Assembly (NCBI GenBank): GCA_030829155.1
Contig: JAURBD010000002.1
Coordinates: forward strand, 1-42,328
Reading direction: 5' to 3'
DNA from: Flavobacteriaceae bacterium
GTDB lineage: Bacteria; Bacteroidota; Bacteroidia; Flavobacteriales; Flavobacteriaceae
Length of the DNA stretch: 42,328 bases
Below, piece after piece: positions 3,597 through 19,802 of the stretch; the first letter of the stretch is position 1; every line of letters starts with the position of its first letter. The notes under the pieces are model-generated. The model worked only from the letters and a program-made list of their open reading frames with translations. It searched no databases and was not told where the DNA came from. The position numbers and the translations under genes were made by a program.

Positions 3597-3634
3597 AAAC
3601 CAATGAATCAAACAACAAGATACAAAATTCCGAA

Positions 3635-3658
3635 TGTTCAATTGCTTTTTATTGAACA
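3635..3658. promoter_or_regulatory. Inverted repeat between divergent tspO and mvaD
   Basis: TGTTCAAT and ATTGAACA form a perfect 8-bp inverted repeat around an 8-base T-rich centre. It sits in the 85-bp divergent intergenic region, about 23 bp from the mvaD start, just upstream of TATATTTA (3669-3676), a one-mismatch version of the TAnnTTTG element. It could be an operator or the stem of a small hairpin; it is short and the region is AT-rich, so chance is possible. Confidence 0.35.
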
Positions 3659-3681
3659 ATGAATCCATTATATTTACAATC

Positions 3682-4761
3682 ATGAAAAGTGAAGAAGATT
3701 TTGTTGAAACTCATCTCAAAGAAGTTGAAGGGGCTTCAGTTTGGGAATCCCCTAGTAATATTGCATTGGTTAAGTATTGGGGTAAATATGGGACACAGTA
3801 TCCACAAAATCCCTCATTAAGTTTTACTTTGTCAAAATGCATAACGAAGACATCAATTTCATTTGTCCCAAAAGAGATTAAAAATCGAGATTTTTCTTTT
3901 GACTTTAAATTTGAAGGGAATAACTCACCAGCTTTTCATCCTAAAATTCAAACTTTTTTAGAGCGAATAGATTGCTATGTACCTTTTGTAAGACAACATC
4001 ACTTAAAGATTGAAAGTGTTAATTCATTCCCTCACAGCAGTGGAATTGCATCTTCAGCATCAGCGATGAGTGCTTTAGCCTTGGGTATAATGTCAATGGA
4101 AAAGAAAATTAACCCTACAATTTCTGACGCATATTTTTTTTTAAAGGCTTCTTTTTTAGCCCGATTAGGTTCGGGTAGTGCCGCCAGAAGTTTAAAAGGT
4201 CCTATTGTATCTTGGGGAAAAACAGATGTTATTGAAGGAAGTTCAGATTTATATGGAACAGCTTTAGACTCGAAAATCCACCCTATTTTTGAAGAATATC
4301 AGGATACCATATTATTGATTGACAAAGGTCAAAAGAAGGTTAGTAGTTCAGTTGGTCACAATCTGATGAATAATCACCCCTATGCGGCTACCCGATTTAA
4401 TCAAGCTTACATCAATTTTAAAAAACTAATTACAATCCTTTCCCAAGGAAATCTTACAGAATTTATTTCTTTAGTTGAATCCGAAGCACTAACCCTTCAC
4501 GCCTTGATGATGGCATCTCAGCCCTATTTTATTCTTATGCAGCCCAATACTCTCAAAGTACTTAATAGGGTTTGGGAATACCGTCAGGATAACAATTCCT
4601 CATTATGTTTTACACTTGATGCAGGAGCGAATGTTCATTTGCTTTATCCTAAGTCAGAAAAAGATGAAGTTCTCAAGTTTATAAAGGAAGAGCTATCTTG
4701 TTATTGTCAAAACGGTAAATTCATTGAAGATCAAATTGGTAATGGTGCTAAAAAAGTTTAA
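3682..4761 (+). CDS. mvaD: Diphosphomevalonate decarboxylase
   Basis: A 359-residue GHMP-superfamily enzyme that converts mevalonate diphosphate to isopentenyl diphosphate with ATP, the last step of the mevalonate pathway. SPSNIALVKYWGKY near the start is diagnostic, HSSGIASSASAMSALALGI is the phosphate-binding loop, and RLGSGSAARSLKGPIVSWG holds the Ser/Arg active-site segment. The ATG at 3682 (MKSEEDFVE) fits homologues better than the in-frame ATG at 3634, which lies in the divergent promoter region. The stop is 11 bp before the kinase start. Mevalonate-route IPP synthesis is usual in Flavobacteriia. Confidence 0.92.
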   Translation: MKSEEDFVETHLKEVEGASVWESPSNIALVKYWGKYGTQYPQNPSLSFTLSKCITKTSISFVPKEIKNRDFSFDFKFEGNNSPAFHPKIQTFLERIDCYVPFVRQHHLKIESVNSFPHSSGIASSASAMSALALGIMSMEKKINPTISDAYFFLKASFLARLGSGSAARSLKGPIVSWGKTDVIEGSSDLYGTALDSKIHPIFEEYQDTILLIDKGQKKVSSSVGHNLMNNHPYAATRFNQAYINFKKLITILSQGNLTEFISLVESEALTLHALMMASQPYFILMQPNTLKVLNRVWEYRQDNNSSLCFTLDAGANVHLLYPKSEKDEVLKFIKEELSCYCQNGKFIEDQIGNGAKKV

Positions 4762-4772
4762 CTTTGATAGGT

Positions 4773-5696
4773 ATGAAAGGACCCTTATTTTATGCTAAAA
4801 TTTTACTCTTTGGAGAATATGGCATCATCAAAGACTCAAAGGGTCTTTCTATACCGTATAACTTTTATCGAGGAGCCCTCAAGATTTCTGAAGACCCATC
4901 AACTTTAGATTCTCATTTCAAATTAGTTAGTTTTTGTAAATATCTCAAAAAACTTCCAGAATCAACTGTATCTTTTGATTGGCATCGATTAGAAGCAGAT
5001 TTAGACAAAAAAATGTATTTTGATAGTAGTATTCCTCAAGGATATGGAGTTGGAAGTAGTGGAGCTTTAGTAGCATCTGTATACGATCAATATGCTTTAA
5101 ATAAAATTACAGTTTTAGAGAACCTAACCAAAGAAAAGTTGCAGCACCTTAAAGCTGTTTTTGTGGCAATGGAATCTTTTTTTCATGGAAAATCATCCGG
5201 TTTAGATCCGCTTAATAGCTATCTAAGCTTACCCATTCTAATTAATTCTAGTGATCATATTGAACCTACCGGTATTCCCTCTCAAAACCCCAAGGGTAAA
5301 GGAGCTGTTTTTCTTTTGGATAGTGGTGCATCTGGTAAAACGGCACCTATGGTTTCTATTTTTATGGAAAATATGAAAAGAGAGTCTTTTCGTGTAATGA
5401 TGAAAGATCAATTCATCAATTACACCGATGCTTGCGTAGACGATTTTTTGAGCGGAAATTTGAAGTCGCTTTTTTCTAATATGAAACAACTTTCCCATTT
5501 GGTTCTCAATAATTTCAAACCCATGATTCCCAAAGAATTTCATACCCTTTGGAAGCAAGGTATTGATTCCAACGATTATTATCTTAAACTATGTGGTTCA
5601 GGAGGCGGAGGTTTTATTTTAGGATTTGCTAAAGACTTTAAAAAAGCAAAAGAAGTCCTTAAGGATTATCGATTAGAGGTTGTCTATAATTTATAG
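4773..5696 (+). CDS. GHMP kinase, probable mevalonate kinase
   Basis: A 307-residue GHMP kinase. YAKILLFGEYGI at the N-terminus, PQGYGVGSSGALVASVYDQY as the ATP-binding glycine/serine loop near 88-107, and KLCGSGGGGFILGF near the C-terminus are the three family motifs. Its position right after mvaD indicates mevalonate kinase or, less likely, phosphomevalonate kinase; the motifs alone do not separate these. The ATG at 4773 is preferred over the TTG at 4764, which precedes it by three codons. Next comes a UbiA prenyltransferase 9 bp downstream, so isoprenoid supply and use are encoded together. Confidence 0.85.
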   Translation: MKGPLFYAKILLFGEYGIIKDSKGLSIPYNFYRGALKISEDPSTLDSHFKLVSFCKYLKKLPESTVSFDWHRLEADLDKKMYFDSSIPQGYGVGSSGALVASVYDQYALNKITVLENLTKEKLQHLKAVFVAMESFFHGKSSGLDPLNSYLSLPILINSSDHIEPTGIPSQNPKGKGAVFLLDSGASGKTAPMVSIFMENMKRESFRVMMKDQFINYTDACVDDFLSGNLKSLFSNMKQLSHLVLNNFKPMIPKEFHTLWKQGIDSNDYYLKLCGSGGGGFILGFAKDFKKAKEVLKDYRLEVVYNL

Positions 5697-5705
5697 AAAA
5701 GACCA

Positions 5706-6602
5706 ATGCTTTTTAAAAATAAACGTATTAAAAAGTATTGGCTCCAAATGTTAGCCCTTTTTGCTTCTGTTCGAGGGTATACACTTTTAACAATAATTAT
5801 TGCTCAGTATCTAAGTGCTCGATATATTTTTGCACCCCAACATAAATGGAATGATATAATTTTCGATCAAAAGTTGTTTATGTTAGTTTTGGCAACATCA
5901 TTTGCGATTGCTGGCGGATATTTGATAAATAATTTTTATGATGCAGAAAAAGATCAAATTAATCGGCCACAAAAGTATCTTTTAGAGAATCGTGTTTCAG
6001 CTCCTTTTCAATTACTTTGTTATGGGGTATTGAATTTTTGCGCTTTGTTATTGTCCGTAATAGTTTCGCATCGAACGCTACCTTTTTTTGGAGTTTATAT
6101 TTTTGGATTATGGCTTTATAGTCACTTGTTAAAAAAACAGTTTTGGGCAAGTAATGTTTTTGCAGTCTTATTAGCCGTAACTCCTTTTTTTGTAATTACA
6201 CTATATTTTAAAAATTTTTCAAGCATTGTTTTCTACCACGGCGCCTTCTTGTTTTTGGTGGTTCTGATACGAGATTTGATTAAGGATTTAGAAAATTTTA
6301 GAGGAGATTGGGTCAGAGAATATAAAACAATAGCAGTTGTTTTCGGAGAAACTACAACAAAAAAAGTTATTACTTTTTTAGTGCTTTTAACTTTTATTCC
6401 TATCCGATTTCTCTTGACTCAAAAAGAAATTTTAGGAACGATGTGGTATTATTTCCTAGTAGCTATTCCCTTTCTTTTATTGATCGTTTTGATCTTATGG
6501 AAATCTCCGGTTCAAAAGACGTATCTTTGGCTTCATAATTTATTAAAATTTCTTATTGTAACCGGAATATTAAGTATTATGCTTATTCGGTTTCCTCTCT
6601 AG
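5706..6602 (+). CDS. UbiA-family prenyltransferase, possibly (geranylgeranyl)glyceryl-phosphate type
   Basis: A 298-residue, multi-helix membrane protein of the UbiA superfamily. The first Asp-rich motif is NNFYDAEKDQINRPQK (about residues 78-93), the second RDLIKDLENFRGDW near 197-210; these bind the prenyl diphosphate through Mg2+. Flavobacterial proteins of this subgroup, in this same mvaD/kinase neighbourhood, are commonly named geranylgeranylglycerol-phosphate geranylgeranyltransferase, an ether-lipid enzyme in archaea. The acceptor cannot be read from sequence; menaquinone (MenA) or heme (CtaB) roles are less likely but open. Confidence 0.75.
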   Translation: MLFKNKRIKKYWLQMLALFASVRGYTLLTIIIAQYLSARYIFAPQHKWNDIIFDQKLFMLVLATSFAIAGGYLINNFYDAEKDQINRPQKYLLENRVSAPFQLLCYGVLNFCALLLSVIVSHRTLPFFGVYIFGLWLYSHLLKKQFWASNVFAVLLAVTPFFVITLYFKNFSSIVFYHGAFLFLVVLIRDLIKDLENFRGDWVREYKTIAVVFGETTTKKVITFLVLLTFIPIRFLLTQKEILGTMWYYFLVAIPFLLLIVLILWKSPVQKTYLWLHNLLKFLIVTGILSIMLIRFPL

Positions 6603-6623: not shown

Positions 6624-7379
6624 ATGGGCTCAAAGTCAAACAATTCCTCACTCAAAAAATCAGCAAACACAACGCGATTAAATAAGTTTATTGCCAATTC
6701 AGGGATTTGTTCACGACGTGAAGCAGATATGTTTATTGCAATGGGAATGGTAAAAATAAACGGAAAAATTATTGTTGAAATGGGGTATCAAGTTCAACCT
6801 GGAGATGACGTTCGTTACGACGGGAGAAGGATAATTTCAGATAAACCAGCTTATGTTTTGTTAAATAAGCCAAAGGGTTTTTTGGCATCCATAAAGAAAG
6901 GAACCTATAAAAAGGATGTTTTGGAGCTTATCGAAAATGCAACACCTTACAGAATAGACCCTGTTAATGCAATGGATCGTACTACTACAGGATTACTTCT
7001 ATTCACAAATGACACTGAACTTAAAATCAAATTAAGAAAGTCATCTCGTGGCCTTTTAAAGATTTTTCAAGTTATTCTTGATAAAAACCTTGTTCCAGCT
7101 GATCTTGATAAAATCAGAGCAGGTGTTTTAATTGATAAATTTGACAAAATTGAAGTAGACTCAATTAGTTTTATAAAAGGCGAAACTAAACGAAAGGTCG
7201 GCGTAGAGCTGACTTCAGAACGCCATCGTGCTATATTTTATCTATTTGAAAAATTAGGATATAAAGTAGAGCAAGTTGATCGTGTGGTATACGCACATTT
7301 GACAAAAAAAGACTTACCTCGCGGAAAATGGAGACATTTAAATGAGCGTGAAATCAATCTATTTAAAATGATGAAATAA
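6624..7379 (+). CDS. RsuA/RluB-family rRNA pseudouridine synthase
   Basis: A 251-residue RNA modification enzyme. An N-terminal S4 RNA-binding domain (TRLNKFIANSGICSRREAD, about 17-36) precedes the catalytic domain. The catalytic aspartate lies in NAMDRTTTGLLLFTND (Asp118); most relatives have GRLD here, so the residues before Asp differ while the nucleophile is kept. The substrate is probably a uridine in large-subunit rRNA (RluB type), though RsuA/RluE/RluF cannot be excluded. The 3' end overlaps the convergent glycosyltransferase gene by 17 bp. Confidence 0.85.
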   Translation: MGSKSNNSSLKKSANTTRLNKFIANSGICSRREADMFIAMGMVKINGKIIVEMGYQVQPGDDVRYDGRRIISDKPAYVLLNKPKGFLASIKKGTYKKDVLELIENATPYRIDPVNAMDRTTTGLLLFTNDTELKIKLRKSSRGLLKIFQVILDKNLVPADLDKIRAGVLIDKFDKIEVDSISFIKGETKRKVGVELTSERHRAIFYLFEKLGYKVEQVDRVVYAHLTKKDLPRGKWRHLNEREINLFKMMK

Positions 7380-8703
7380 TTTTTTTTGTAGTCCTTAGTT
7401 CGTACAAAAAAACGCCATAAACAATCCCGTATTGAAGCCCAATTAAGTAGAAATTTTCCTCAAAATTTGGATTTCCATAAGCTGCATAACTTAGAACTAT
7501 TAGACAGCTCCAAAACAGAGGATAGGTATAGTTTGTGAATAGCGAAAGGCTTACTAATGTCACAATATACCAGGGATGAACCGTAGTTGAAATAAAAAAA
7601 TAACAACTCAAAGTAAGTAACATTCCATTGATTACAGAAACAGCTGTTTTGTTCGAACGAAAAAAACTAAACACAGCAACAATTGCTAAAACAACATAAG
7701 GTGTAATTTTAGCTAATTGTCTTATGATATTATATCCTTTTATTTCATAACCAATTTCACGAATAATATAATAAAGACTACCATTAAACTCAAAGCGATT
7801 GAACCACAACTTAAGGGTTTTAAGATAATTAGTAATGTTGTTTTCTACAAAAAAGAATGGAATAAAAACTACCCCTAAAAAAACTAAACTGTAAAGTCCA
7901 AAAAGTATGCTTTTTTTTGGTTTTAAATAATTCCACAGCACTGGCAAAATTAGTAAGGGAATCAATTTAGTAGCAATGGAGACAGCCATTGAAACTGCTC
8001 CAAGCATCAGTTTGTGATGAGAAAAAATCAAATACAATCCCATAAAAAAAAAGAATACCATAACACCTTCCCAATGTAGGTTTCCAGTCAATTCAATAAT
8101 AATCAGAGGATTTAGAAAGTAATAAGCAATTCTTTTTTTATCAAGCTTTAAAAAATCTAATAACTTAATTCCGATCCAGAAGACCCCGAGATCTGCTAAA
8201 ATCAGAAGAATACGGATACAAATAATATTGACAAGTATTGAGTTTCCACCAATGGTATTGGCCAAAAAAAATCCAAATTGATTTACTGGAGGATAGTTTG
8301 AATAATGCTTAGCACTCAAACTACCCATTCCTTCATGTAATTTTTGACTGAATTCCGATATTATTATTGGAGATTGGATTAATATATTAGGTGTGAATTC
8401 ATAGGGGCTCATCCCATTAGAAAGTAACATCCCATCCCAAATAAATCGAAAGAAATCATCTGAAAGAAGAGGAGTTGAAACAAAAAAGATGAGTCTGAAT
8501 AGAATACCTAGCTCAAGAATTTTTTTCAATCTGAGGCTTTTATGAATTATAAAAAAACTACTTAGAAACAGAAAAATATAAATTAGAATTAAAATCAAAC
8601 TTTGGTTTCTATCAATCTCATAACCCATGAAATAATAACCAAAGAAGCATCCAATTAGAAGTGTTGCATTAAGTACTTTTAAAATATTTTTTTTATTGTT
8701 CAT
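7363..8703 (-). CDS. GT-C fold membrane glycosyltransferase (mannosyltransferase-like)
   Basis: A 446-residue protein with about ten or more hydrophobic helices. The segment PLLSDDFFRFIWDGMLLSNG (about residues 78-97) has the acidic pair in the first outside loop that marks GT-C enzymes using polyprenyl-phosphate sugars, and SNYPPVNQFGF follows the family pattern seen in PIG-M/mannosyltransferase-like proteins. It is last in a three-gene minus-strand operon; its ATG overlaps the TAA of the gene before (TAATG). The first gene of that operon could make its polyprenyl-phosphate donor. Sugar and acceptor are unknown. Confidence 0.75.
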   Translation of the reverse strand: MNNKKNILKVLNATLLIGCFFGYYFMGYEIDRNQSLILILIYIFLFLSSFFIIHKSLRLKKILELGILFRLIFFVSTPLLSDDFFRFIWDGMLLSNGMSPYEFTPNILIQSPIIISEFSQKLHEGMGSLSAKHYSNYPPVNQFGFFLANTIGGNSILVNIICIRILLILADLGVFWIGIKLLDFLKLDKKRIAYYFLNPLIIIELTGNLHWEGVMVFFFFMGLYLIFSHHKLMLGAVSMAVSIATKLIPLLILPVLWNYLKPKKSILFGLYSLVFLGVVFIPFFFVENNITNYLKTLKLWFNRFEFNGSLYYIIREIGYEIKGYNIIRQLAKITPYVVLAIVAVFSFFRSNKTAVSVINGMLLTLSCYFFISTTVHPWYIVTLVSLSLFTNYTYPLFWSCLIVLSYAAYGNPNFEENFYLIGLQYGIVYGVFLYELRTTKKIISSF

Positions 8704-10205
8704 TACCCTTGAGTTCGATATGAATTAATAAATACAAATCCAAAACCAATAAAAAGCATTAAATGAAAGGGGAATAATCCCAAATCACCCGATTCACCAA
8801 CCACAAAACCACTGTATATTCCAAATAAAAAATACAGTGTTAGTAGCCCTTCGAAGATTGTGTTTTTAGAAACTTTTTTTCGCGTGTACTTGTTGTATTT
8901 CAGGGATTTTTTTATGGTTAAAACATTAAATTTTGGAGTACGAATAAAATCACTTTTTTTACCTATATGCCCCTCTAAAACTGCTAATGTATTGTGAAAA
9001 GAAAATCCCATAGCTACAGTGTAAAAAGTAAAAAATATTTTGGTAAATTCTAAAAAGTTAAGAAATCCACCACCTTTTGAATATCTGTAAAGAACCCAAT
9101 AACAACCAAAAAAAATCAAAGTACTGACAATAAAAAGGCTAGACAAATCATAATATAAGCTGAGATGTCCCCATTCATTTTTGATATAAAGCATCGGAAT
9201 ACTCAATACACCAACAAAAAAAACATTCAAGAACATGGTGCTGTTGAGTAGATGAAGAATAGAATGTACTTTAGTAATTAAAGGTAAGTTTTTAGCATGA
9301 ATTACATTTTTAGACATTTTTTGAAAATTTTCTGCTCCACCCTTATTCCATCTAAATTGTTGAGATCGAATGGCACTAATAACTATTGGTAGTTCTGATG
9401 GGGTTTCTACGTCTTCTAAATATTTAAATTTCCATTTTTTTAATTGAGCTCTGTAACTCAAATCTAAATCTTCGGTCAAGGTATCACCTTGCCAATTCCC
9501 AGAGTCAATTATGCAAGTTTTTCTCCAAATACCTGCAGTGCCATTAAAATTCATAAAATGGTTTTTACTGTTTCTTCCGACTTGCTCTAAAGTAAAATGA
9601 GCATCTAGAGCAAAGGCTTGAATTTGAGTAAGAATAGAATAATCTCTGTTGATATGAGACCAACGAGTTTGAACAACACCTATATTTTTGTCATCAAAAT
9701 ATGGAATAGTTTGCAAAAGCCAATTAGATTTTGGTAGAAAGTCAGCATCAAAAATTGCAATAAATTCTCCTTTAGCAATTTCTAAACCCTCTTTTAGTGC
9801 ACCAGCTTTAAAACCAATTCGTTTTTTCCTTCTTATTTGAACAATATCCAATCCTTGTTTTCTAAGTTTTTGAACAAGATTTTGGATTAAGCCAACAGAT
9901 TCATCTGTAGAGTCGTCGAGTACCTGAATTTCCAGTTTCTTTCTAGGGTATTCAATTAAATTAATACATTCTAACAGGCGTTCAATAACATAAATCTCAT
10001 TATAAACCGGAAGTTGAATAGTAACTAGGGGCATAGCATCTAAATCATTCAAATCAAGTTCTACAAGATTTTCTTTTTTCTTTTTGTATTGAATATAATT
10101 CCATAATAGATTAAGCTGAGAGAGGCTGTAAAATAAAACTAATATCAGTGAGATTGAGTATAAAAACATCAAAAAAACAGATAGATAGAACCAGATATTT
10201 TCCAT
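8703..10205 (-). CDS. Cellulose synthase-like family 2 glycosyltransferase
   Basis: A 500-residue membrane GT2 with an N-terminal helix (about 5-30), a cytosolic catalytic domain, and about four C-terminal helices. All processive-GT2 signatures are present: DD at 97-98, DAD at 153-155, TED at 244-246 and QQFRW at 282-286. This set is shared with plant CslA/CslC and bacterial beta-glycan synthases, so it probably builds a beta-linked chain or transfers to a lipid from a nucleotide sugar. No PilZ domain or Bcs partner gene is present, so cellulose itself is not supported. Flanked at 5 bp and -1 bp by two other glycosyltransferases. Confidence 0.85.
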   Translation of the reverse strand: MENIWFYLSVFLMFLYSISLILVLFYSLSQLNLLWNYIQYKKKKENLVELDLNDLDAMPLVTIQLPVYNEIYVIERLLECINLIEYPRKKLEIQVLDDSTDESVGLIQNLVQKLRKQGLDIVQIRRKKRIGFKAGALKEGLEIAKGEFIAIFDADFLPKSNWLLQTIPYFDDKNIGVVQTRWSHINRDYSILTQIQAFALDAHFTLEQVGRNSKNHFMNFNGTAGIWRKTCIIDSGNWQGDTLTEDLDLSYRAQLKKWKFKYLEDVETPSELPIVISAIRSQQFRWNKGGAENFQKMSKNVIHAKNLPLITKVHSILHLLNSTMFLNVFFVGVLSIPMLYIKNEWGHLSLYYDLSSLFIVSTLIFFGCYWVLYRYSKGGGFLNFLEFTKIFFTFYTVAMGFSFHNTLAVLEGHIGKKSDFIRTPKFNVLTIKKSLKYNKYTRKKVSKNTIFEGLLTLYFLFGIYSGFVVGESGDLGLFPFHLMLFIGFGFVFINSYRTQG

Positions 10206-10210
10206 TTTGG

Positions 10211-10903
10211 CTATTTAGAAAAGTAATGTTTGAAAATCCACCAAATTATTTTTATGCCTGCAAAGATAGTTCCTTTTAAAGTTCCTGAAACTTTTGAAAC
10301 TCCGATTCGTTGACGATAATTTACTTTGATTTCTTGGTATGAAACTTTTTTACGTAAGATTTTCAATTGCATCTCAATAGTCCATCCGTATGTTTTATCA
10401 CTCATGGTTAGATCCATTAATGTATTCCAGCGAATTGCTCTAAATGGTCCAAGATCAGTAAAGTTTGAACTGTATATAATTTTCATCAACAAACAGGCCA
10501 ACCAATTCCCAAATACTTGTTGTGGTGTCATGGATCCAAATTCTCTTTTTTCGGCTACTCGTGCTCCTAAAACGAAATCAAATTCACCTTTTTGTATTGG
10601 TGTAACTAGCGAGGTAAGTTCTTCGGGAAAGTCAGAATAATCCCCATCTAAAAAAACAACAATGTCAGGCACTTCATTTTGGTTCTTAAGATAATCGATG
10701 CCTTTTAGGCAAGCGTATCCATATCCTTTTCTTTTTTCTGTAAGAACAGTAGCGCCAGCTAGCTGGGCTACTTCTAAAGTATTGTCCGTCGAATTATTAT
10801 TGATAACTATAACTTCATCAATAATTTTTGGTAGATCATTTATTACATGGCTTATGGATTCTTGTTCATTAAAAGCAGGAATGATGACTTTGATTTGTTG
10901 CAT
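10211..10903 (-). CDS. Family 2 glycosyltransferase, polyprenyl-phosphate (DPM1/DPG-like)
   Basis: A 230-residue soluble GT-A enzyme. VIIPAFNEQESISHVINDL at the N-terminus and VVFLDGDYSDFPEEL (DGD at 86-88) are typical of dolichyl/undecaprenyl-phosphate mannosyl- or glucosyltransferases. The late segment YRQRIGVSKVSGTLKGT matches that group. There are no C-terminal membrane helices of the GtrA type. First gene of the minus-strand operon, it may load the polyprenyl carrier used by the GT-C enzyme two genes downstream. Confidence 0.82.
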   Translation of the reverse strand: MQQIKVIIPAFNEQESISHVINDLPKIIDEVIVINNNSTDNTLEVAQLAGATVLTEKRKGYGYACLKGIDYLKNQNEVPDIVVFLDGDYSDFPEELTSLVTPIQKGEFDFVLGARVAEKREFGSMTPQQVFGNWLACLLMKIIYSSNFTDLGPFRAIRWNTLMDLTMSDKTYGWTIEMQLKILRKKVSYQEIKVNYRQRIGVSKVSGTLKGTIFAGIKIIWWIFKHYFSK

Positions 10904-10987: not shown

Positions 10988-12535
10988 TTAGTTTCCTGAA
11001 GGAAATTCTGGAGAAAAGAACCTATTCTCTAAAGGACCGTTTTCTAATTTTAGAACTCCCCTCGGACAAACAGCAGAACACACACCACAGCCAACACAGG
11101 AGGACCGAACTATATTTTGCCCTTTTTGAGCATATGCACGAACATCAATTCCCATTTCACAGTAGGTTGAACAATTTCCACAAGAAATACATTGACCTCC
11201 GTTTGTAGTTATTCTAAATCTAGATTTGAAACGCTGAATTAAACCCAAATAGGCAGCTAAAGGACATCCAAAACGACACCAAACCCTATTTCCAAAAATT
11301 GGATAAAATCCAGTGCCTATAACTCCAGCAAAAACAGATCCAATAAGAAAACCATAAATATTTTGAATGGTTTGTGTTTTGATTCCGATAACATTTTGTG
11401 ATCCTGTAAAATAAGAATACAAAGTCAAACCAGTCATCACTAGAGAAAAGAGTAAAACACTGTGAACCATCCAACGTTCCAATTTCCATGCGCCGATTGA
11501 TTTATTTGATAGGTGTCTAAAGGGATCGCCTAAAGTTTCTGCTAGTCCACCACAACCACAAATCCAAGAACAATACCATCTTTTACCAAAAAAATAAACC
11601 ATTACAGGGACAATTACAAGGGTAAGTACAATTCCCCATACAAGAATGAATATACCAAACCCTCCACTTGAAATTAAACTATTTAAATTCCAACTAAAGA
11701 AAAAGTCATAATCCAAAGGGAATGCATTTTTGAAGTCATACCATGGCTTATCAAATCGAACCAAAATTTCAGGAATCAAAAAGGCAAAAACAATTTGAAA
11801 AAATAATACAGAAGTTGTTCTTAATATTTGATGCATATTGTTTCTGTATTTGATGTACATCCGAATTGCCATGACGATCATTACAACGCAATAAAGAAAT
11901 CCATACAGAAACCATTGACTGGCAAGATTTCCACTAATGCTTCGACTGATTGGATCTACAATATATGTCCAGTTTACTATGTAGTCTGGGAAGAAGTATA
12001 ATACAATATAAAAAGTAACTAAAAACAAAAAAACAAACCATCCCAAAAAGCCTCTATTGGTTGATGAATTAAAGTAGATACCATTATTTTTTATTCCAGG
12101 GGGCCCCAGAAGAATTAGGTTTGGTAGAATGTAAAGCAAAGATCCTAAAATTCCAAGTCCAAAAGTTAAAAGCCAAAACAAAGACTTATTTTCTTTAATA
12201 ATCCCTTTACCTGCTATTTTGGCAATATCATAAGACAAACTGTGGGGTTTATCCCAGATTACTTTCCCCCATTCTCTATTTTTTTTGTGAATTTTATTAA
12301 CTTCTTTTACAGCAGTTACTATTTGCGAAGAAAATGAAAAAGGTTCTGAAAACTCTTTTCCCACAAGATTTGTGTTCAAGGAGTTAATAAACAATTCACT
12401 CTTTATTCCTTTGACATTTATTATCCTTTGAAATTCCTTGGGATTCAATTTGTATTTTCCAAGCAAAACCAATGAACAAAATGAACTAAGACCAATTAAA
12501 AAAATACCTAAACCAATTTTCTGTAGTAACTTCAT
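10988..12535 (-). CDS. Membrane polyferredoxin (NapH/NosR-like) with two 4Fe-4S sites
   Basis: A 515-residue protein with about seven hydrophobic segments. After the membrane region come Cys322/326/328 (WYCSWICGCGG) and Cys420/424 (WCRFGCP), the paired motifs of NapH/NosR-type proteins. The C-terminus carries two classical 4Fe-4S motifs: Cys449/452/455/459 and Cys480/483/486/490, the last ending CSAVCPRG. It should move electrons between a soluble donor and the membrane or its far side. It starts 2 bp after the FAD oxidoreductase gene, its likely partner. No nitrate, nitrous oxide or sulfite reductase gene is nearby, so the acceptor is unknown. Confidence 0.8.
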   Translation of the reverse strand: MKLLQKIGLGIFLIGLSSFCSLVLLGKYKLNPKEFQRIINVKGIKSELFINSLNTNLVGKEFSEPFSFSSQIVTAVKEVNKIHKKNREWGKVIWDKPHSLSYDIAKIAGKGIIKENKSLFWLLTFGLGILGSLLYILPNLILLGPPGIKNNGIYFNSSTNRGFLGWFVFLFLVTFYIVLYFFPDYIVNWTYIVDPISRSISGNLASQWFLYGFLYCVVMIVMAIRMYIKYRNNMHQILRTTSVLFFQIVFAFLIPEILVRFDKPWYDFKNAFPLDYDFFFSWNLNSLISSGGFGIFILVWGIVLTLVIVPVMVYFFGKRWYCSWICGCGGLAETLGDPFRHLSNKSIGAWKLERWMVHSVLLFSLVMTGLTLYSYFTGSQNVIGIKTQTIQNIYGFLIGSVFAGVIGTGFYPIFGNRVWCRFGCPLAAYLGLIQRFKSRFRITTNGGQCISCGNCSTYCEMGIDVRAYAQKGQNIVRSSCVGCGVCSAVCPRGVLKLENGPLENRFFSPEFPSGN

Positions 12536-12537
12536 AA

Positions 12538-13881
12538 TTATGATATTATGTTATTAAATATTACTTTCCAGCTTTTCTTTTTGAGTTTGATATTAGTATT
12601 AAAATCTTGATTGAATTTTAAAAGAATTTTTTTTTCATACGTTTTAAAAAATTCAGGATCAAAATTACAATTAGCCAATTGTTCAATCATGCAGAAAACT
12701 GACTTTTTTTCACAAAGTATTTTGTCTAATAGCTCATGTCGCATTCGAATTCCAAAGGTGTTAATCCCCAAAAATTTCTTAGTGTTTTCATCATATGCAA
12801 GGGTTATTGCAACATTTTCATTGGGGTGTTTCCAATGAAAATGTTTTTCAGGTTTCGTGGGTTGAGCAGCTACAAGCCCATAGGTTTGATACTCAATGTC
12901 AAAGAATTTTGCGCTATTAAACCAATGTCCAGGATTATAAGCTTTTTTGTTCCCTGTTAGAGTTTGTGCAAGTGTTTCACCCATCATTCTACCTGTGTAC
13001 CAAACTGCTTCTATTGATCTTCTTCCCGTTTGTGGTTCTTGCTGTTCTGAGCAGTCACCAATTGCGTATATTGAATTTTGATTTGTTTCCAAATATTTGT
13101 TTACAAGAATTCCTCGATTGGTGGCAATGTCTGTATTTTTTATAAAATCAATATTGGGTCTCACACCTGTTGTAAGTCCAACAAATTGACAGTTAATAAT
13201 TTCTCCGGAATCTGTTCGAATGGCTTTTACACGTCCAATTTTATCTTCTATAATTTCACTGAGATTTGTATTGAGTCTTAGGTCGATAACGTGTTCTAGT
13301 AGGTGTTGATTTATTAACTTAGACTCTTCTTTTGGTAATACGTTGTTCCAAAAACTGTTTTCTCTAACCAAGAAGGTTACTTTTTTTCCTCTTGAATGTA
13401 GCATTTCTGCCAACTCTACCCCAATAAGGCCCCCACCAACAATAACAGCCTCATTTGTAGAAGGACTATAATCTTCAAGACTATCCAAATCCTGCTTAGA
13501 GTATAGACCTTGTACGCCTTTTAAGTTTTCACCTGGCCAACCAAATTTGTTAGGTATCGAACCTGTGGCTATAATAAGACTATCATAGTAGAGAATGGAT
13601 TTATCAGAAAGTCTAATATTCTTTTCTTTAGGATTTATTTGGGTTACAGTTCCTTGAAGTAAATCCAGTTTATTTTTTTTCCAAAAAGTGTTTTCATAGG
13701 GTTGGGTATCTTCCCATCTTAGATGCCCCATATAAACATACATTATAGCTGTCCGAGAGAAAAAATATGGTGTCTCTTTAGAAATTATTAATATGGGTTT
13801 GCTTGATTTTTTTCGGAAATTTCGGGCAAAAGAAACACCAGCAATTCCATTTCCAATAACAATAACTGGAGGGGCATTCAT
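12538..13881 (-). CDS. NAD(P)/FAD-dependent oxidoreductase (pyridine nucleotide-disulfide fold)
   Basis: A 447-residue two-dinucleotide-fold flavoprotein. VIVIGNGIAGVSFAR (FAD-binding GxGxxG, residues 10-15) opens the chain, SLIIATGS marks the second FAD contact, AVIVGGGLIGVELAEM binds NAD(P)H, and SIYAIGDCSE near 290 is the third FAD motif. The overall order resembles NirB N-terminal and ferredoxin reductase-like proteins. There is no redox-active CxxxxC pair, so it is not a disulfide reductase. The 2-bp spacing to the polyferredoxin gene suggests NAD(P)H electrons pass from this flavin to the membrane Fe-S protein. Confidence 0.82.
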   Translation of the reverse strand: MNAPPVIVIGNGIAGVSFARNFRKKSSKPILIISKETPYFFSRTAIMYVYMGHLRWEDTQPYENTFWKKNKLDLLQGTVTQINPKEKNIRLSDKSILYYDSLIIATGSIPNKFGWPGENLKGVQGLYSKQDLDSLEDYSPSTNEAVIVGGGLIGVELAEMLHSRGKKVTFLVRENSFWNNVLPKEESKLINQHLLEHVIDLRLNTNLSEIIEDKIGRVKAIRTDSGEIINCQFVGLTTGVRPNIDFIKNTDIATNRGILVNKYLETNQNSIYAIGDCSEQQEPQTGRRSIEAVWYTGRMMGETLAQTLTGNKKAYNPGHWFNSAKFFDIEYQTYGLVAAQPTKPEKHFHWKHPNENVAITLAYDENTKKFLGINTFGIRMRHELLDKILCEKKSVFCMIEQLANCNFDPEFFKTYEKKILLKFNQDFNTNIKLKKKSWKVIFNNIIS

Positions 13882-14570: not shown

Positions 14571-15263
14571 TTATTTCACAAAACGTAAATAGTATTGATG
14601 GAGTGTGGATGGGGATTTCCCAATATATCTCAAAAGATGAATGATCAAGAAGTGAAATTGTAAACGAAGGACACCGTTGCTTTCAAAACGACGGGCAGAA
14701 GTTTTTACTTCTTTTGATAATACACAAAATAAAGTTTCTTTATATATTCTGTCAATTAATTCGCCATCTTCACAAACCAGGTATTCTTCATTAAAACCTT
14801 TGAGTGATTCGAAAAATTTCTTTTTAATGAATAAAGATTGATCTCCACCCCTACAAAATCGATTGTTAAAACGACTTGCAAAAGAAGCCAATTGAAGACT
14901 CAAATGTGAACTTAAAAATTTTAATCTAAATGAACCGGCTTTGTATCCTTGGTCAAATACTTGGTGAATGGTTCTATCAAAAGCATAAGGAGGAATGGTG
15001 TCTACATGAATGAAGTACAAAAAGTCAGCTTTAGCAATTTTTACTCCGTGATTTTGCTGTATGGCCCTGCCTTTTTCGGTTTGTATTACAGAACAGTCAT
15101 TTTTTTGTTTTAAATAAGCAAAGCTTCCATCAGAACTTCCTCCATCAACAAAAATGATCTCATTTTCGAAAACCATATTCTTTTTTAGTGAAATCAAAAA
15201 CGCTTCTAGCTGATTAATTTCATTGAGGATGGGTATAATTATAGAAAGGTACGGTTTACTCAT
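14571..15263 (-). CDS. Selenodomain/rSAM-associated transferase 2 (GT2 family)
   Basis: A 230-residue GT-A glycosyltransferase of the type known as rSAM/selenodomain-associated transferase 2 (TIGR04283 as I recall it). SIIIPILNEINQLEAF opens the fold, FVDGGSSDGSF (about 39-48) binds the nucleotide, HVDTIPP supplies the metal-binding acidic residue, and GGDQSLFIKKKFFE and DGELIDRI follow. It is last in the seven-gene arsenosugar operon; its start overlaps the DUF547 stop by 8 bp. A role in adding a group to the arsenoriboside is inferred from context only. Confidence 0.85.
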   Translation of the reverse strand: MSKPYLSIIIPILNEINQLEAFLISLKKNMVFENEIIFVDGGSSDGSFAYLKQKNDCSVIQTEKGRAIQQNHGVKIAKADFLYFIHVDTIPPYAFDRTIHQVFDQGYKAGSFRLKFLSSHLSLQLASFASRFNNRFCRGGDQSLFIKKKFFESLKGFNEEYLVCEDGELIDRIYKETLFCVLSKEVKTSARRFESNGVLRLQFHFLIIHLLRYIGKSPSTLHQYYLRFVK

Positions 15264-15984
15264 TTAGACTCCAGTCGTATTTTTTATATTCAATTTTGGC
15301 TTGGTCGTTAAAATCTTTATCTGAATATTTTTGAATAAAAGTGATTCTTTCTTTTTTTGAACCAAAGTCTTTGCTAAACCATAAGAAAATTCTTGATAGC
15401 GTTATTTTGTGGTATTCAATCTGGTTTTTAGTTGTGTCGTTTATGAAAAGTTTTGCAGCGGCGTCCAGTTGTTTTGGAATTTTAGAAGCTCTGTAGGCCT
15501 CGTTCAATAATTGAGGACAAGAAGCAGAGGCACAATTAATTGCAAAATGAATTCTAGGTTCATTCATTTTCCGCAATACTTTATGTTCAATATCGTTGAG
15601 AGTTAGACTCTCATCATTAGGGAGTTCAAGAAAAATAGTGTCCCAAGGGTCTTTGATGTCTCTGATATTTTGGATAGGATAATTATCAAGAATTAATTTT
15701 ACTGTAATAGCATTATAAGCATTAATAAAATAAGCTAAAGAATCATTTTTGTCAAAATATGGGGCAGGTGGCTTTTGTTCAAGTAGTTTGATGTACTTGT
15801 TCAAATCTGATGAATTTTTTTTCCAGTTTTTATAATCTACATTTCCCTTATCATCTACATATTTTTGTAAAAGCATATCCAAGCTCGAGTGAATTCCTTT
15901 GTCTTGAGAAATTATTTTTTGGGTTTCAAATTTTGAGAATGTAAATCCTGAAAAAATCAATACGACAAGAATAAGATTTTTCAT
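15256..15984 (-). CDS. DUF547 domain protein, exported
   Basis: A 242-residue protein with a signal peptide (MKNLILVVLIFSGFTFS) and the DUF547 region: YVDDKGNVDYKNWK, AYFINAYNAITVKLILDNYP (about 87-106) and a Cys/His-containing stretch, HFAINCASASCPQLL. DUF547 proteins have no settled biochemical role; the Cys and His residues hint at a papain-like fold. The ATG at 15984 is preferred because it begins at the signal peptide and clears the arsM gene; an in-frame start at 16011 would overlap arsM by 10 bp. It lies between arsM and transferase 2, so it may handle the arsenosugar outside the cytoplasm. Confidence 0.8.
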   Translation of the reverse strand: MKNLILVVLIFSGFTFSKFETQKIISQDKGIHSSLDMLLQKYVDDKGNVDYKNWKKNSSDLNKYIKLLEQKPPAPYFDKNDSLAYFINAYNAITVKLILDNYPIQNIRDIKDPWDTIFLELPNDESLTLNDIEHKVLRKMNEPRIHFAINCASASCPQLLNEAYRASKIPKQLDAAAKLFINDTTKNQIEYHKITLSRIFLWFSKDFGSKKERITFIQKYSDKDFNDQAKIEYKKYDWSLNE

Positions 15985-16001
15985 TTCAATTTGATTAGGG
16001 G

Positions 16002-16970
16002 TTAACAGCAACCTCCACCATCATAATGATAGGTAGATTCGCTTATAAAAATATTGTTATGATTTGTGTTTTTTAATGCCTGAGCAGTTTTATCACAAAT
16101 TGCCAAAGGTTGATTTTGAAGCAAAATGTGACCATTTTTGTCATCAAAATAGGGCTCATCTCCATAATAAATTGCAGATTTTCCGGTGAAAACACATGGT
16201 CCATCTTCGGGAATTGGGTCTTTGATCGCACAAATCTCTACACTTTCAATAAAAATTCTCTGTTTGGTAGGGTAGTGCTTTGGGTCTAAGATTCTATATG
16301 GTCTTTTCGCCCTAATTTCGATAGTACCAAAACCAACATCAGTTAACATTTTAACATAATCAGCTAAGGGAATTGATCCCGAAAGGCAGAGTGCTCTCAA
16401 GCGTTTGTTGTTCCTCAAGGTTTTGTTCATCGGTTGTTCGCAAATAGGATCACTCATTACCAGTCTTCCTCTGGGTTTTATCACGCGATACATTTCTGTA
16501 AGAGCCTTTTTTAGCTCTTCCATTTTGAAGATATTAAATAAGCAATTTTGTGCTGCAATATCTATACTATTTTCTTCAACTGGAAGGTTCAAAGCATCTC
16601 CTTTTTTGAGTTTCACAAAATCAGATTCGAACCATTCATTCTGTTTTTCAGCGAGTAGAAAATTTTTTCTTGAGGCTTCAAGCATTTCATCAACCACATC
16701 AATTCCGATTACCCCCTCTTTTTGTCTCGAGAAGTATGAAAATTGAAGTAATTCCATTCCACCACCTACTCCTACATACAATATTTTGGGGTTGTTAACT
16801 AAATCTCTGGGATGAACAGTTGATCCACAACCGTAATTCATTTCCTGCATTATTGTAGGGATTTTGAGACCCGGGAATTCCCATATTGGGGTTGTAGTGC
16901 AACATAAACCAACATCTGGAGTAAGTGCTGCTTCTTTATAAATATTTTTGGTTAATTTTAAATAGTCCAT
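16002..16970 (-). CDS. arsM: Arsenite S-adenosylmethionine methyltransferase, arsenosugar type
   Basis: A 322-residue methyltransferase matching the arsenosugar-linked ArsM subgroup. LCCTTTPIW (Cys23/24) and MNYGCGSTVH (Cys48) come first, the SAM loop is VGVGGGMELLQF near 66-77, and Cys143 and Cys195 are spaced much like the As(III)-binding pair of characterised ArsM proteins. It should methylate As(III) to mono- and dimethylarsenicals. After the catalytic domain is a tail of about 60 residues ending YHYDGGGCC. Only 1 bp separates it from the nucleoside phosphorylase gene, inside an operon that also encodes ArsS. As-binding residues are assigned by spacing, not alignment. Confidence 0.9.
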   Translation of the reverse strand: MDYLKLTKNIYKEAALTPDVGLCCTTTPIWEFPGLKIPTIMQEMNYGCGSTVHPRDLVNNPKILYVGVGGGMELLQFSYFSRQKEGVIGIDVVDEMLEASRKNFLLAEKQNEWFESDFVKLKKGDALNLPVEENSIDIAAQNCLFNIFKMEELKKALTEMYRVIKPRGRLVMSDPICEQPMNKTLRNNKRLRALCLSGSIPLADYVKMLTDVGFGTIEIRAKRPYRILDPKHYPTKQRIFIESVEICAIKDPIPEDGPCVFTGKSAIYYGDEPYFDDKNGHILLQNQPLAICDKTAQALKNTNHNNIFISESTYHYDGGGCC

Positions 16971-16971
16971 T

Positions 16972-17802
16972 TTATATTAATTTGAGAAATGATATTAATT
17001 GTTTTACTAATATTATCAAAGATTGTTCCCCTTTTTTAGCCATCTCCATAATGTTGTTAATATCTATAGGTTCCAGGTTTTCCGGATCACATACATCTGT
17101 TAAAACAGAAAAAGCAATACAATCAATTCCAAGCTGGTTTGCAACAATCACCTCTGGAACAGTTGACATTCCAACTGCATCGGCACCAATTATTTTCAAA
17201 TAACGATATTCTGCTTTAGTTTCTAATTGGGGTCCAACAACAGCTGCGTATATTCCCTTATGTAATGTTATTTTTTTTGTTTCTGCAATTTTTATTGCTT
17301 TATCTTTTAAGGAAGTGTCATAAGGTTCACTCATATCAACAAAACGATTACCGAGACAATCAACACCTTTCTCTGCTAGGGGAGACCCACCTTGCAGATT
17401 AATATGATCTTCAATCAACATAATCTCTCCTTTATTATAATCTAAGTTTATTGCACCAGCAGCATTACTGATTATTAATTTTTTTACTCCAAGCTCATTC
17501 ATAACCCTAACCGGGTATGTTATCTCAAAAAAATTATAACCCTCATAGAGGTGAAAGCGTCCCTGAAAAACAAGAACTTTTTTTGAACTTAAAGAGCCGT
17601 AAATTAGTTTTCCAGTTTGATGTTCAACGGTTGACGACCTAAAATTAGGAATATCCTCAAAAGGAATCTCTTTTTCAATTACTAGGTAATTGACCAAATC
17701 GCTCAATCCAGTGCCTAAAATAATTCCAATTGCTCCATTTTCTATACCTTGCTTTTTGAGATATTTCGAGCTTTCTTCAATTTTTTGAATCATTGTTTTC
17801 AT
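16972..17802 (-). CDS. Purine nucleoside phosphorylase (trimeric PNP-I type)
   Basis: A 276-residue phosphorylase. GIILGTGLSDLVNYL (phosphate-binding), STVEHQTGKLIYG, ISNAAGAINLDYNKGEIMLI and GPQLETKAEYRYLK with VGMSTVPEVIVA are the class I PNP/MTAP motifs. The usual reaction is phosphorolysis of inosine or guanosine. Its place between transferase 1 (4-bp ATGA overlap) and arsM suggests it instead removes adenine from a 5'-arsino-5'-deoxyadenosine made by ArsM and ArsS, releasing an arsenoribose. That substrate is inference; a general purine salvage role is also possible. Confidence 0.9.
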   Translation of the reverse strand: MKTMIQKIEESSKYLKKQGIENGAIGIILGTGLSDLVNYLVIEKEIPFEDIPNFRSSTVEHQTGKLIYGSLSSKKVLVFQGRFHLYEGYNFFEITYPVRVMNELGVKKLIISNAAGAINLDYNKGEIMLIEDHINLQGGSPLAEKGVDCLGNRFVDMSEPYDTSLKDKAIKIAETKKITLHKGIYAAVVGPQLETKAEYRYLKIIGADAVGMSTVPEVIVANQLGIDCIAFSVLTDVCDPENLEPIDINNIMEMAKKGEQSLIILVKQLISFLKLI

Positions 17803-18404
17803 TGGTCTAAGAATTTTAAAAGTTCAGGAATTGTTTCGAGGTCTTCAAAATAATCTATGTCGTTTTTGGTTTCTAAATATGCTAATGTATTGTTTTTAAA
17901 GTCTGCAACCGTATCCTTGAAAACCCTTGAAGTTCCCCACCTTTTTTCGTGAAAAACAGATGGAATCCATCTTGAAAGACCTAATAAGTAATATCCCCCA
18001 TCCGTTGCTGGTCCAATTACACCATCTACATTTCTTAATGTAAAAAAGGCCTTGTTGATGATTTGAGCATCTAAATTCCATAAGTCGGTGCCAATGACAA
18101 CTATTTGATTATAACCACAATTAAAACCTATTTTAAAAGCATTAGCCATCCGTTCTCCCAAAGAATTCCCTTCTTGAATTTTTTTATTGCGAACACGACC
18201 CTCCCAAATATCCTGATCATCAATAAAATCAGAATAATATAAACTCTTATGTGCGTCAACTCCATCTACAACTAAAGCTGTTTTATCAATCAGTTTATGG
18301 AATATTAAAAGCGCTTTTTCATCACCAATTGTTTTTGCTAACCGGGTCTTTACCTTTCCAAGTTGTGGGTTTTTTGTGAAGATTAGTAGTAGTTTTTTCC
18401 CCAT
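17799..18404 (-). CDS. Selenodomain/rSAM-associated transferase 1 (GT-A/DUF2064)
   Basis: A 201-residue nucleotidyl/glycosyl-transferase-like protein of the group recalled as TIGR04282 (DUF2064). LIFTKNPQLGKVKTRLAKTI at 8-27 is the nucleotide-binding N-terminus, as in sugar nucleotidyltransferases. VIGTDLWNLDAQIINKAF and GPATDGGYYLLGLSRW complete the signature. It starts 5 bp after arsS and overlaps the PNP gene by 4 bp. In the arsenosugar operon it might activate or transfer the group attached to the arsenoriboside; the reaction is not known. Confidence 0.87.
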   Translation of the reverse strand: MGKKLLLIFTKNPQLGKVKTRLAKTIGDEKALLIFHKLIDKTALVVDGVDAHKSLYYSDFIDDQDIWEGRVRNKKIQEGNSLGERMANAFKIGFNCGYNQIVVIGTDLWNLDAQIINKAFFTLRNVDGVIGPATDGGYYLLGLSRWIPSVFHEKRWGTSRVFKDTVADFKNNTLAYLETKNDIDYFEDLETIPELLKFLDQ

Positions 18405-18409
18405 AAAAG

Positions 18410-19465
18410 TTAAGTTATACTTCCTTGACAGCTGCTACCAGCTCCAGCTGTGCATCCGTAACAATGTTGGGAAAGTAGTATGTAACGATTGTTGAGTTTA
18501 CCTTCATTAAATTCACTTATGTGTTTAGTTGTAACATCAACTTTGAGATTCAACATTTGATTAAAATCACAATCAAACAAAAAGCCTTCCCAGTTGACCG
18601 AAAGAGTATTGGTGCACATCAGATTTTTTACAGCTGAGGGATTAAAAGCATCCACTAGCGTATACATATATTCTTCATAGTTTTCTGAAGCAATAAGATA
18701 ATCTAGAAAACGACTGATTGGAAGATTGGTAATTGTAAATAAGTTATTGAATTTAATATTAAAATCTTCTAGTAAAGCTTTTTTGAAATCTACCTCCAAT
18801 ACTGATTGATCTCCTGGTAAAAAAGCTCCAGAAGGATTGTAAACAAGATCCAGCTGAAGATTTTTGTCTAATATTCCATATCCAACTTTGTTTAACATCT
18901 GAAGCGCTTTAATGGAAGTTTCAAAAACTCCATCACCTCTTTGACGATCCGTTTTTTCTCTCTTGTAAAATGGGAGTGAGGAAATAACATGAATTTTGTG
19001 CTTTCCAAAAAAAGTTGGGAGATCATTATATTTTTTATTAGCTAGTATAATCGTGAGATTGGATCGAACTATAATTTCCTCCACATTGGTTTTTCGTAGC
19101 TCTTCAACAAACCATCTAAATCTAGGATGCATTTCGGGTGCCCCACCAGTAAGATCAACGGTTTTGATTTTTATATTTTTTATGACTTTTAAAATTTGTT
19201 CCATGGTTCTGTGAGTCATAATTTCTTTACGATCTGGGCCAGCATCAACATGGCAATGAGCACAAACTTGATTACACATGTACCCAACATTAATTTGTAA
19301 AATTTCTAGTTTTTTAGGCCTTATTGGAGGAAGCTTGTTGGAAGCAACTTTTTTTTTAAAAGTAGGTAAACTTCCGTCTTTGAAAATCCCACTAGCTAGT
19401 ATTTCGAGCTGTTTTTCGGTTTGAGAGAGTGAATTATTTCTCGCTTTAAGTGATTTTATCTTCAT
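18410..19465 (-). CDS. arsS: Radical SAM arsenosugar biosynthesis protein ArsS
   Basis: A 351-residue radical SAM enzyme. The cluster-binding motif is CNQVCAHC (Cys64, Cys68, Cys71), preceded by LEILQINVGYM; TVDLTGGAPEMHP supplies the GGE-like SAM contact. The C-terminus holds MCTNTLSVNWEG, FDCDFNQML and the Cys-rich CYGCTAGAGSSCQG, as expected for the radical SAM/Cys-rich family. Work on cyanobacterial ArsS shows it joins the SAM-derived 5'-deoxyadenosyl group to dimethylarsenic to give an arsenosugar nucleoside. Its neighbours arsM and PNP fit that chemistry. Confidence 0.9.
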   Translation of the reverse strand: MKIKSLKARNNSLSQTEKQLEILASGIFKDGSLPTFKKKVASNKLPPIRPKKLEILQINVGYMCNQVCAHCHVDAGPDRKEIMTHRTMEQILKVIKNIKIKTVDLTGGAPEMHPRFRWFVEELRKTNVEEIIVRSNLTIILANKKYNDLPTFFGKHKIHVISSLPFYKREKTDRQRGDGVFETSIKALQMLNKVGYGILDKNLQLDLVYNPSGAFLPGDQSVLEVDFKKALLEDFNIKFNNLFTITNLPISRFLDYLIASENYEEYMYTLVDAFNPSAVKNLMCTNTLSVNWEGFLFDCDFNQMLNLKVDVTTKHISEFNEGKLNNRYILLSQHCYGCTAGAGSSCQGSIT

Positions 19466-19466
19466 G

Positions 19467-19802
19467 CTACATGCTCAATTGATCATGACGATTCATCATT
19501 TGAACTCCATGGACTAAAGCAGCTCCAGCTTTTATTGCTGCACCAACATGAACTGCTTCCATCATATCTTCTTTTGGAATACCTATTTGTAAATTATCTT
19601 TAGTATACGCATCAATACAGTACGGACATTGAACGACATGAGATACGGCTAATGCTATTAATAATTTTTCTCGTTTTGATAATGAACCTTCATCGAAAAC
19701 AGTATTGTAATAATCAAAAAATTTTGAGCCAAGAATTTCATTCCATTCGGCTATTGAACTAAATTTTTTCAGGTCTTCGGGTTGGTAATAGCTTTTTTTC
19801 AT
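19467..19802 (-). CDS. AhpD/carboxymuconolactone decarboxylase-like protein, arsenosugar-associated
   Basis: A 111-residue all-helical AhpD-like protein. SHVVQCPYCIDAY holds the redox CxxC (Cys59, Cys62) of alkylhydroperoxidase-like proteins. It is the first gene of the operon, 1 bp before arsS, and this form is seen beside arsS in other bacteria. It may reduce arsenic(V) intermediates or handle peroxide; that is inference. The 121 bp upstream, shared with the M15 peptidase end, should hold the operon promoter, but I see no perfect TAnnTTTG there, only a one-mismatch TATCTTTA on the minus strand. Confidence 0.87.
   Translation of the reverse strand: MKKSYYQPEDLKKFSSIAEWNEILGSKFFDYYNTVFDEGSLSKREKLLIALAVSHVVQCPYCIDAYTKDNLQIGIPKEDMMEAVHVGAAIKAGAALVHGVQMMNRHDQLSM

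Follow-up and report, generated by a model that had tools for sequence, protein, structure and literature searches.

A flavoprotein gene and a membrane polyferredoxin gene, adjacent in the 42,328-nucleotide window (the whole stretch of DNA that was analyzed), travel together, in numerous Bacteroidota families, with arsenosugar biosynthesis genes and envelope glycosyltransferase genes, which suggests an unrecognized redox step in the making or placing of arsenosugars. With moderate confidence, we propose that the pair is an NAD(P)H-to-membrane electron-delivery module dedicated to a Bacteroidota arsenosugar or lipid-linked glycan pathway. To our knowledge, the completion of arsenosugars and arsenosugar lipids after ArsS is largely unsolved, and the chief value of the finding is that it supplies testable genes for this unfinished pathway. 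The flavoprotein, the polyferredoxin, a DUF547 protein, and three glycosyltransferases form a concrete list of extra genes for the late steps. Many Bacteroidota, among them marine NS5-group flavobacteria, have these genes in common operons with arsM and arsS, and the late steps become directly testable by deleting them. In addition, a family of membrane polyferredoxins is delimited by a signature of its own.

The gene pair and its surroundings

Both genes lie on the reverse strand and, as the first-pass annotation had recorded, are separated by 2 bp (Table 1). That annotation read them as a two-gene NAD(P)H flavoprotein and membrane Fe-S module and offered rare adjacency in relatives as the observation that would speak against it. 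Among 247 Bacteroidia genomes, the flavoprotein gene lies directly upstream of 50 of the 52 polyferredoxin genes; the attempted refutation therefore fails, and the two-gene module is well supported. A plasmid search found no copy, and a search of an anti-phage defense library gave no match. In one genome (G160:C20:13029-15993), both genes contain in-frame stops and look broken.

The absence of a terminal reductase nearby had also been remarked upon, correctly, but a complete arsenosugar biosynthesis cluster (14571-19802, reverse strand) located 690 bp upstream of the pair had been overlooked. The full set (ArsM, ArsS, TIGR04282, TIGR04283, and TIGR04169) adjoins the pair with all members above their cutoffs, among them ArsM (NF038099) and ArsS (TIGR04167), which jointly identify a Bacteroidota arsenosugar locus. 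The cluster also holds a purine nucleoside phosphorylase (PNP), which may remove adenine from the ArsS product, and the DUF547 gene, whose product scores above its Pfam cutoff. The descriptions of arsenosugar clusters that we found contain no flavoprotein, polyferredoxin, GT2a, GT2b, or MptB-like genes, and a search of the literature outside subscription journals found no paper linking the pair or DUF547 with arsenosugars. Downstream of the pair, positions 7363-10903 (reverse strand) encode three glycosyltransferases of lipid-linked or processive type. Beside them, a UbiA-like prenyltransferase gene (5706-6602, forward strand) lies in a conserved block; it shows only weak similarity to EboC, and the genes that precede it (3634-5696) resemble a mevalonate-pathway kinase and decarboxylase.

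Table 1. Features of the gene pair and its neighbors in the window
Feature	Coordinates	Strand	Evidence or remark
MptB-like multi-helix glycosyltransferase, 446 aa	7363..8703	-	NF038066 4e-9, TIGR03459 1.2e-14, both under cutoff
GT2b, cellulose-synthase-like family 2 glycosyltransferase, 500 aa	8703..10205	-	NCBIfam/Pfam matches
GT2a, polyprenyl-phosphate-sugar-synthase-like glycosyltransferase, 230 aa	10211..10903	-	Glycos_transf_2 2.8e-22
Membrane polyferredoxin, 515 aa	10988..12535	-	Fer4_5, two C-terminal 4Fe-4S motifs, helix prediction
Codons of first membrane Cys group CSWICGCGG, family signature	11546..11572	-	CxxxCxC invariant in relatives
Flavoprotein, FAD/NAD(P)H oxidoreductase (Pyr_redox_2), 447 aa	12538..13881	-	Pfam PF07992 1.7e-50
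TIGR04283 arsenosugar biosynthesis glycosyltransferase	14571..15263	-	213 bits, cutoff 182
DUF547 exported protein, invariant Cys pair in RIHFA..CA..SCP	15256..16011	-	PF04784 5.6e-23; true start probably ATG at 15984
ArsM, arsenosugar-type arsenite methyltransferase	16002..16970	-	NF038099 564 bits, cutoff 400
Purine nucleoside phosphorylase (PNP)	16972..17802	-	NF006054 316 bits, cutoff 218
TIGR04282 arsenosugar biosynthesis glycosyltransferase (CofC-like)	17799..18404	-	186 bits, cutoff 134
ArsS radical SAM enzyme	18410..19465	-	TIGR04167 441 bits, cutoff 300
Arsenosugar-associated AhpD-like protein	19467..19802	-	TIGR04169 177 bits, cutoff 120

Sequence and topology of the two proteins

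The polyferredoxin is predicted to contain eight helices, arranged as an N-terminal helix, a periplasmic domain of ~90 residues, and seven further helices. It has a Fer4_5 match at residues 302-343 and two C-terminal 4Fe-4S motifs, in keeping with its initial description as a multi-helix protein with two such motifs. The first Cys group is CSWICGCGG (Cys 322, 326, and 328), which bears out the early remark that it reads CxxxCxC instead of CxxxCP; the second is an ordinary CxxxCP (CRFGCP). Relatives were collected from 80 named genome loci, and CxxxCxC is kept in 78 of 78 relatives, as well as in every further copy examined. Since this pattern is invariant, it marks an uncharacterized polyferredoxin family, and the mean column identity of 62% in an alignment of 26 relatives argues that the site is not a product of chance. 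No library model covers the family above its NCBIfam cutoff. Each of the 13 conserved cysteines is predicted, from the positive-inside rule, to lie on the cytoplasmic side, and for this reason the periplasmic acceptor suggested earlier is not favored; the quinone suggested alongside it is a possible acceptor.

Three architectures are built on one core: one with a long N-terminal domain, one that is short, and one that has an insert and 10 helices. The long and 10-helix forms swap at the same cluster position within the genus of the window (Candidatus Arcticimaribacter relatives). The structure model of the polyferredoxin is confident in its N-terminal part and poor in its C-terminal part; fold comparison with this model, the C-terminal half of which is poorly modeled, gave no meaningful match in the PDB. 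When the polyferredoxin profile was compared with the sequences of solved structures, the ferredoxin part alone was matched.

The protein is a variant of the NapH/CcoG-type membrane polyferredoxins with a dedicated flavoprotein and its own signature. Its C-terminal half resembles the ferredoxin-type quinol dehydrogenase subunit NapH/MauN, and the NapH model (TIGR02163) aligns with residues 304-498 (2.5e-18) at 66.5 bits, below the cutoff of 213. We rejected NapH membership on this score and on the presence of a single CxxxCP site (CRFGCP), the other being CSWICGC. The polyferredoxin differs from NapH/MauN in having CxxxCxC for the first CxxxCP, an extra periplasmic domain, and extra helices, and it is not accompanied by nap genes. 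Thus, of the NapH/NosR-like Cys pairs noted at first, the NapH-type core is matched weakly, whereas a likeness to NosR is not supported: there is no FMN domain among the Pfam hits, and the NosR model scores 27 bits versus 1000. Identity with CcoG/FixG (TIGR02745) was likewise rejected because the polyferredoxin has no match to this model at an E value of 1e-3; at 1e-60, the genome of the window contains no TIGR02745 match. CcoG/FixG/RdxA proteins (cupric reductase, cbb3 oxidase assembly) are also multi-helix proteins with two cytoplasmic 4Fe-4S motifs. In contrast to them, the polyferredoxin has the CxxxCxC first site and a flavoprotein partner, and cbb3 and copper genes are not among its recurrent neighbors.

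The Pfam domains of the flavoprotein, PF07992 and PF00070, place it in the NADH:ferredoxin/rubredoxin reductase class, with FAD and NAD(P) Rossmann domains and without a redox disulfide. Its NCBIfam matches are all far under cutoff, the nearest models being CoA-disulfide reductase, the NirB N-domain, and NorW. Residues 6-380 have the FAD-NAD(P)H fold common to these proteins and to dioxygenase ferredoxin reductases, whereas a conserved C-terminal region of its own, the low scores, and the lack of a redox Cys in the FAD domain distinguish it from all of them. The only cysteines are at positions 231, 277, 390, 397, and 405. CoA-disulfide reductase identity was rejected, as there is no redox-active Cys in the FAD domain and the first Cys is residue 231. 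Counts of in-frame TGA codons had hinted at selenocysteine; this was rejected for G048, the sole case examined, in which the stops fall at or beyond the gene end.

Co-occurrence with arsenosugar and glycosyltransferase genes

Across the 247 genomes, the polyferredoxin is present in 51, ArsS in 42, and both in 37, leaving 14 genomes with the polyferredoxin only and five with ArsS only. The pair is found in 37 of the 42 ArsS genomes versus 14 of the 205 others (Fisher 5e-27), and 19 families contain both. Relatedness was controlled for only through family-level counts, near relatives, and CcoG. Near relatives outside the genus comprise four genomes with both genes, two with the polyferredoxin only, none with ArsS only, and 15 with neither. 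To control for lifestyle and for membrane polyferredoxins as a class, CcoG was tallied across the 247 genomes; it occurs in 144 and is not linked to ArsS (odds ratio 1.06, p = 1), and the association between polyferredoxin and ArsS persists among CcoG-positive (p = 9e-17) and CcoG-negative (p = 3e-11) genomes alike.

The genes are also physically linked. Polyferredoxin and ArsS genes lie within 12 kb of each other in 7 of the 37 genomes, where 0.2 is expected, and several families carry the pair interspersed with arsM and arsS in a single series of closely spaced or overlapping genes, in differing orders (loci L103, L104, L105, L106, L066, and L124). With FAD and FeS standing for the flavoprotein and the polyferredoxin, the order is FAD-x-FeS-GT2b-ArsM-GT2a-MptB-ArsS in L103, FAD-FeS-GT2b-ArsS-rhodanese-ArsM in L066, ArsS-GT82-DUF547-FAD-FeS in L105, and ArsS-GT82-PNP-ArsM-DUF547-FAD-FeS-GT2a-GT2b-MptB in L124, which is from the same genus as the window. 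The commonest neighbors of the polyferredoxin in 78 to 80 loci are the flavoprotein (67), GT2b (53), GT2a (47), DUF547 (46), and MptB-like (34) genes, and ArsM, ArsS, PNP, TIGR04282, and TIGR04283 each occur in 11 to 16 of 80 loci. A neighborhood survey for a constant third partner, as proposed in the first-pass annotation, thus yields the arsenosugar genes and three envelope-type glycosyltransferases, and these narrow what had been called a module of unknown purpose.

The linkage to GT2b is even tighter than that to ArsS: GT2b is present in 50 of the 51 polyferredoxin genomes. Within GT2b-positive genomes, the link between polyferredoxin and ArsS is weaker but kept (37/50 versus 2/9, p = 0.005). 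The 14 carriers without ArsS have no arsenosugar-type ArsM either, and TIGR04283 is missing from 13; the module can therefore also work without arsenic. These carriers are scattered over the polyferredoxin family tree, requiring at least seven changes. Conversely, three genomes (G117, G242, and G282) contain arsM, arsS, and TIGR04283, and both the pair and GT2b are absent. The pair is therefore neither necessary for nor exclusive to the arsenosugar genes. Taken together, the ArsS-negative carriers, the pair-negative arsM/arsS genomes, the near-constant GT2b, and the weaker link given GT2b lead us to conclude that the pair is part of a broader envelope-glycan-like module whose coupling to arsenosugars is strong but not obligatory.

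Possible functions and further neighbors

In the dedicated electron-delivery module that we propose, and judging from what is known of the protein families, electrons from NAD(P)H would first reduce the FAD of the flavoprotein, which is soluble, and then the two 4Fe-4S clusters of ferredoxin type at the cytoplasmic C terminus of the polyferredoxin, before reaching a membrane-face cluster or thiol site built by CxxxCxC and CxxxCP. We hypothesize that the acceptor at this site would be an intermediate of the pathway, with a pentavalent (methyl)arsenical or a dimethylarsinoyl-sugar carrier as the likeliest candidate. Metal or metalloid reduction of this kind at the cytoplasmic face is proposed by analogy with CcoG, a cytoplasm-facing polyferredoxin that reduces Cu(II) as a cupric reductase (PMC8267372). 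A more specific version, in which the pair is a membrane-bound NAD(P)H-dependent organoarsenical reductase whose invariant CxxxCGC group binds arsenic at the membrane face and hands a trivalent dimethylarsenic-sugar to polyprenyl-linked glycosyltransferases, so that arsenosugars enter envelope lipid or glycan, appears improbable to us.

A possible but less probable account than dedicated electron delivery is that the pair works for a pathway in which GT2a, GT2b, MptB, and the exported DUF547 protein build an envelope glycan or glycolipid, that its redox step is independent of arsenic, and that arsenosugars are merely one cargo or a frequent neighbor. The near-universal presence of GT2b in carriers, the repeated changes in ArsS presence over the polyferredoxin tree, the export or lipoprotein nature of the partners, and the Algoriphagus-type clusters in which DUF547-FAD-FeS-GT2b-GT2a-f9-MptB is intact without ArsS are all in line with it. 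However, the link to ArsS persists among GT2b-positive genomes, many pairs lie away from GT2b (which is within 5 kb in 26 of 51), and several families have arsM and arsS within the same operon of overlapping genes.

Two other explanations center on the electron acceptor. As a radical SAM enzyme, ArsS needs its 4Fe-4S cluster reduced, and the pair could be the reductant that activates it, and perhaps the AhpD-like protein too; the co-occurrence and shared operons agree with this idea, but the genomes that carry one without the other do not, and a soluble enzyme needs no membrane anchor, let alone three architectures of one. We consider it very unlikely. Very unlikely, too, is that the pair acts in respiration or generally as an NAD(P)H:menaquinone oxidoreductase and stands beside arsenosugar genes by chance. 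Although a flavoprotein and a NapH-type membrane protein could reduce quinone, going by family knowledge and the NapH-type match, only 51 of the 247 genomes carry the pair, its tie to ArsS is tight where CcoG shows none, and no respiratory genes recur around it.

Several neighboring genes deserve mention. The DUF547 protein is exported, often as a lipoprotein, and its alignment contains the invariant residues H146, C151, C156, and D206; its model (pLDDT 90.7) has no fold match in the PDB and may represent an uncharacterized enzyme fold. An exported rhodanese-like protein (L059:2862-3365, L066:6662-7183, and L034:1129-1671) adjoins ArsS in some genomes and is also found beside DUF547-FAD-FeS in Cyclobacteriaceae, at loci without nearby arsenosugar genes. 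It is a possible further common partner, perhaps in sulfur or arsenic-thiol chemistry. In L035, L040, L042, L043, L051, and L110, the polyferredoxin gene is separated from GT2a by genes for short exported MORN-repeat-like proteins, which occur in several flavobacteria but are not constant. Upstream of the flavoprotein gene, the other strand often carries a gene for a GH113-like glycoside hydrolase (L025-L027, L030, L032-L035, L108-L110, L123, and L131-L133). Elsewhere in the window, an alanine-dehydrogenase-like gene (31886-33001, reverse strand) appears as two open reading frames, 32435-33001 and 31886-32413, that look like halves of one protein split by a frameshift, which would reflect either gene decay or faulty assembly of this draft genome.
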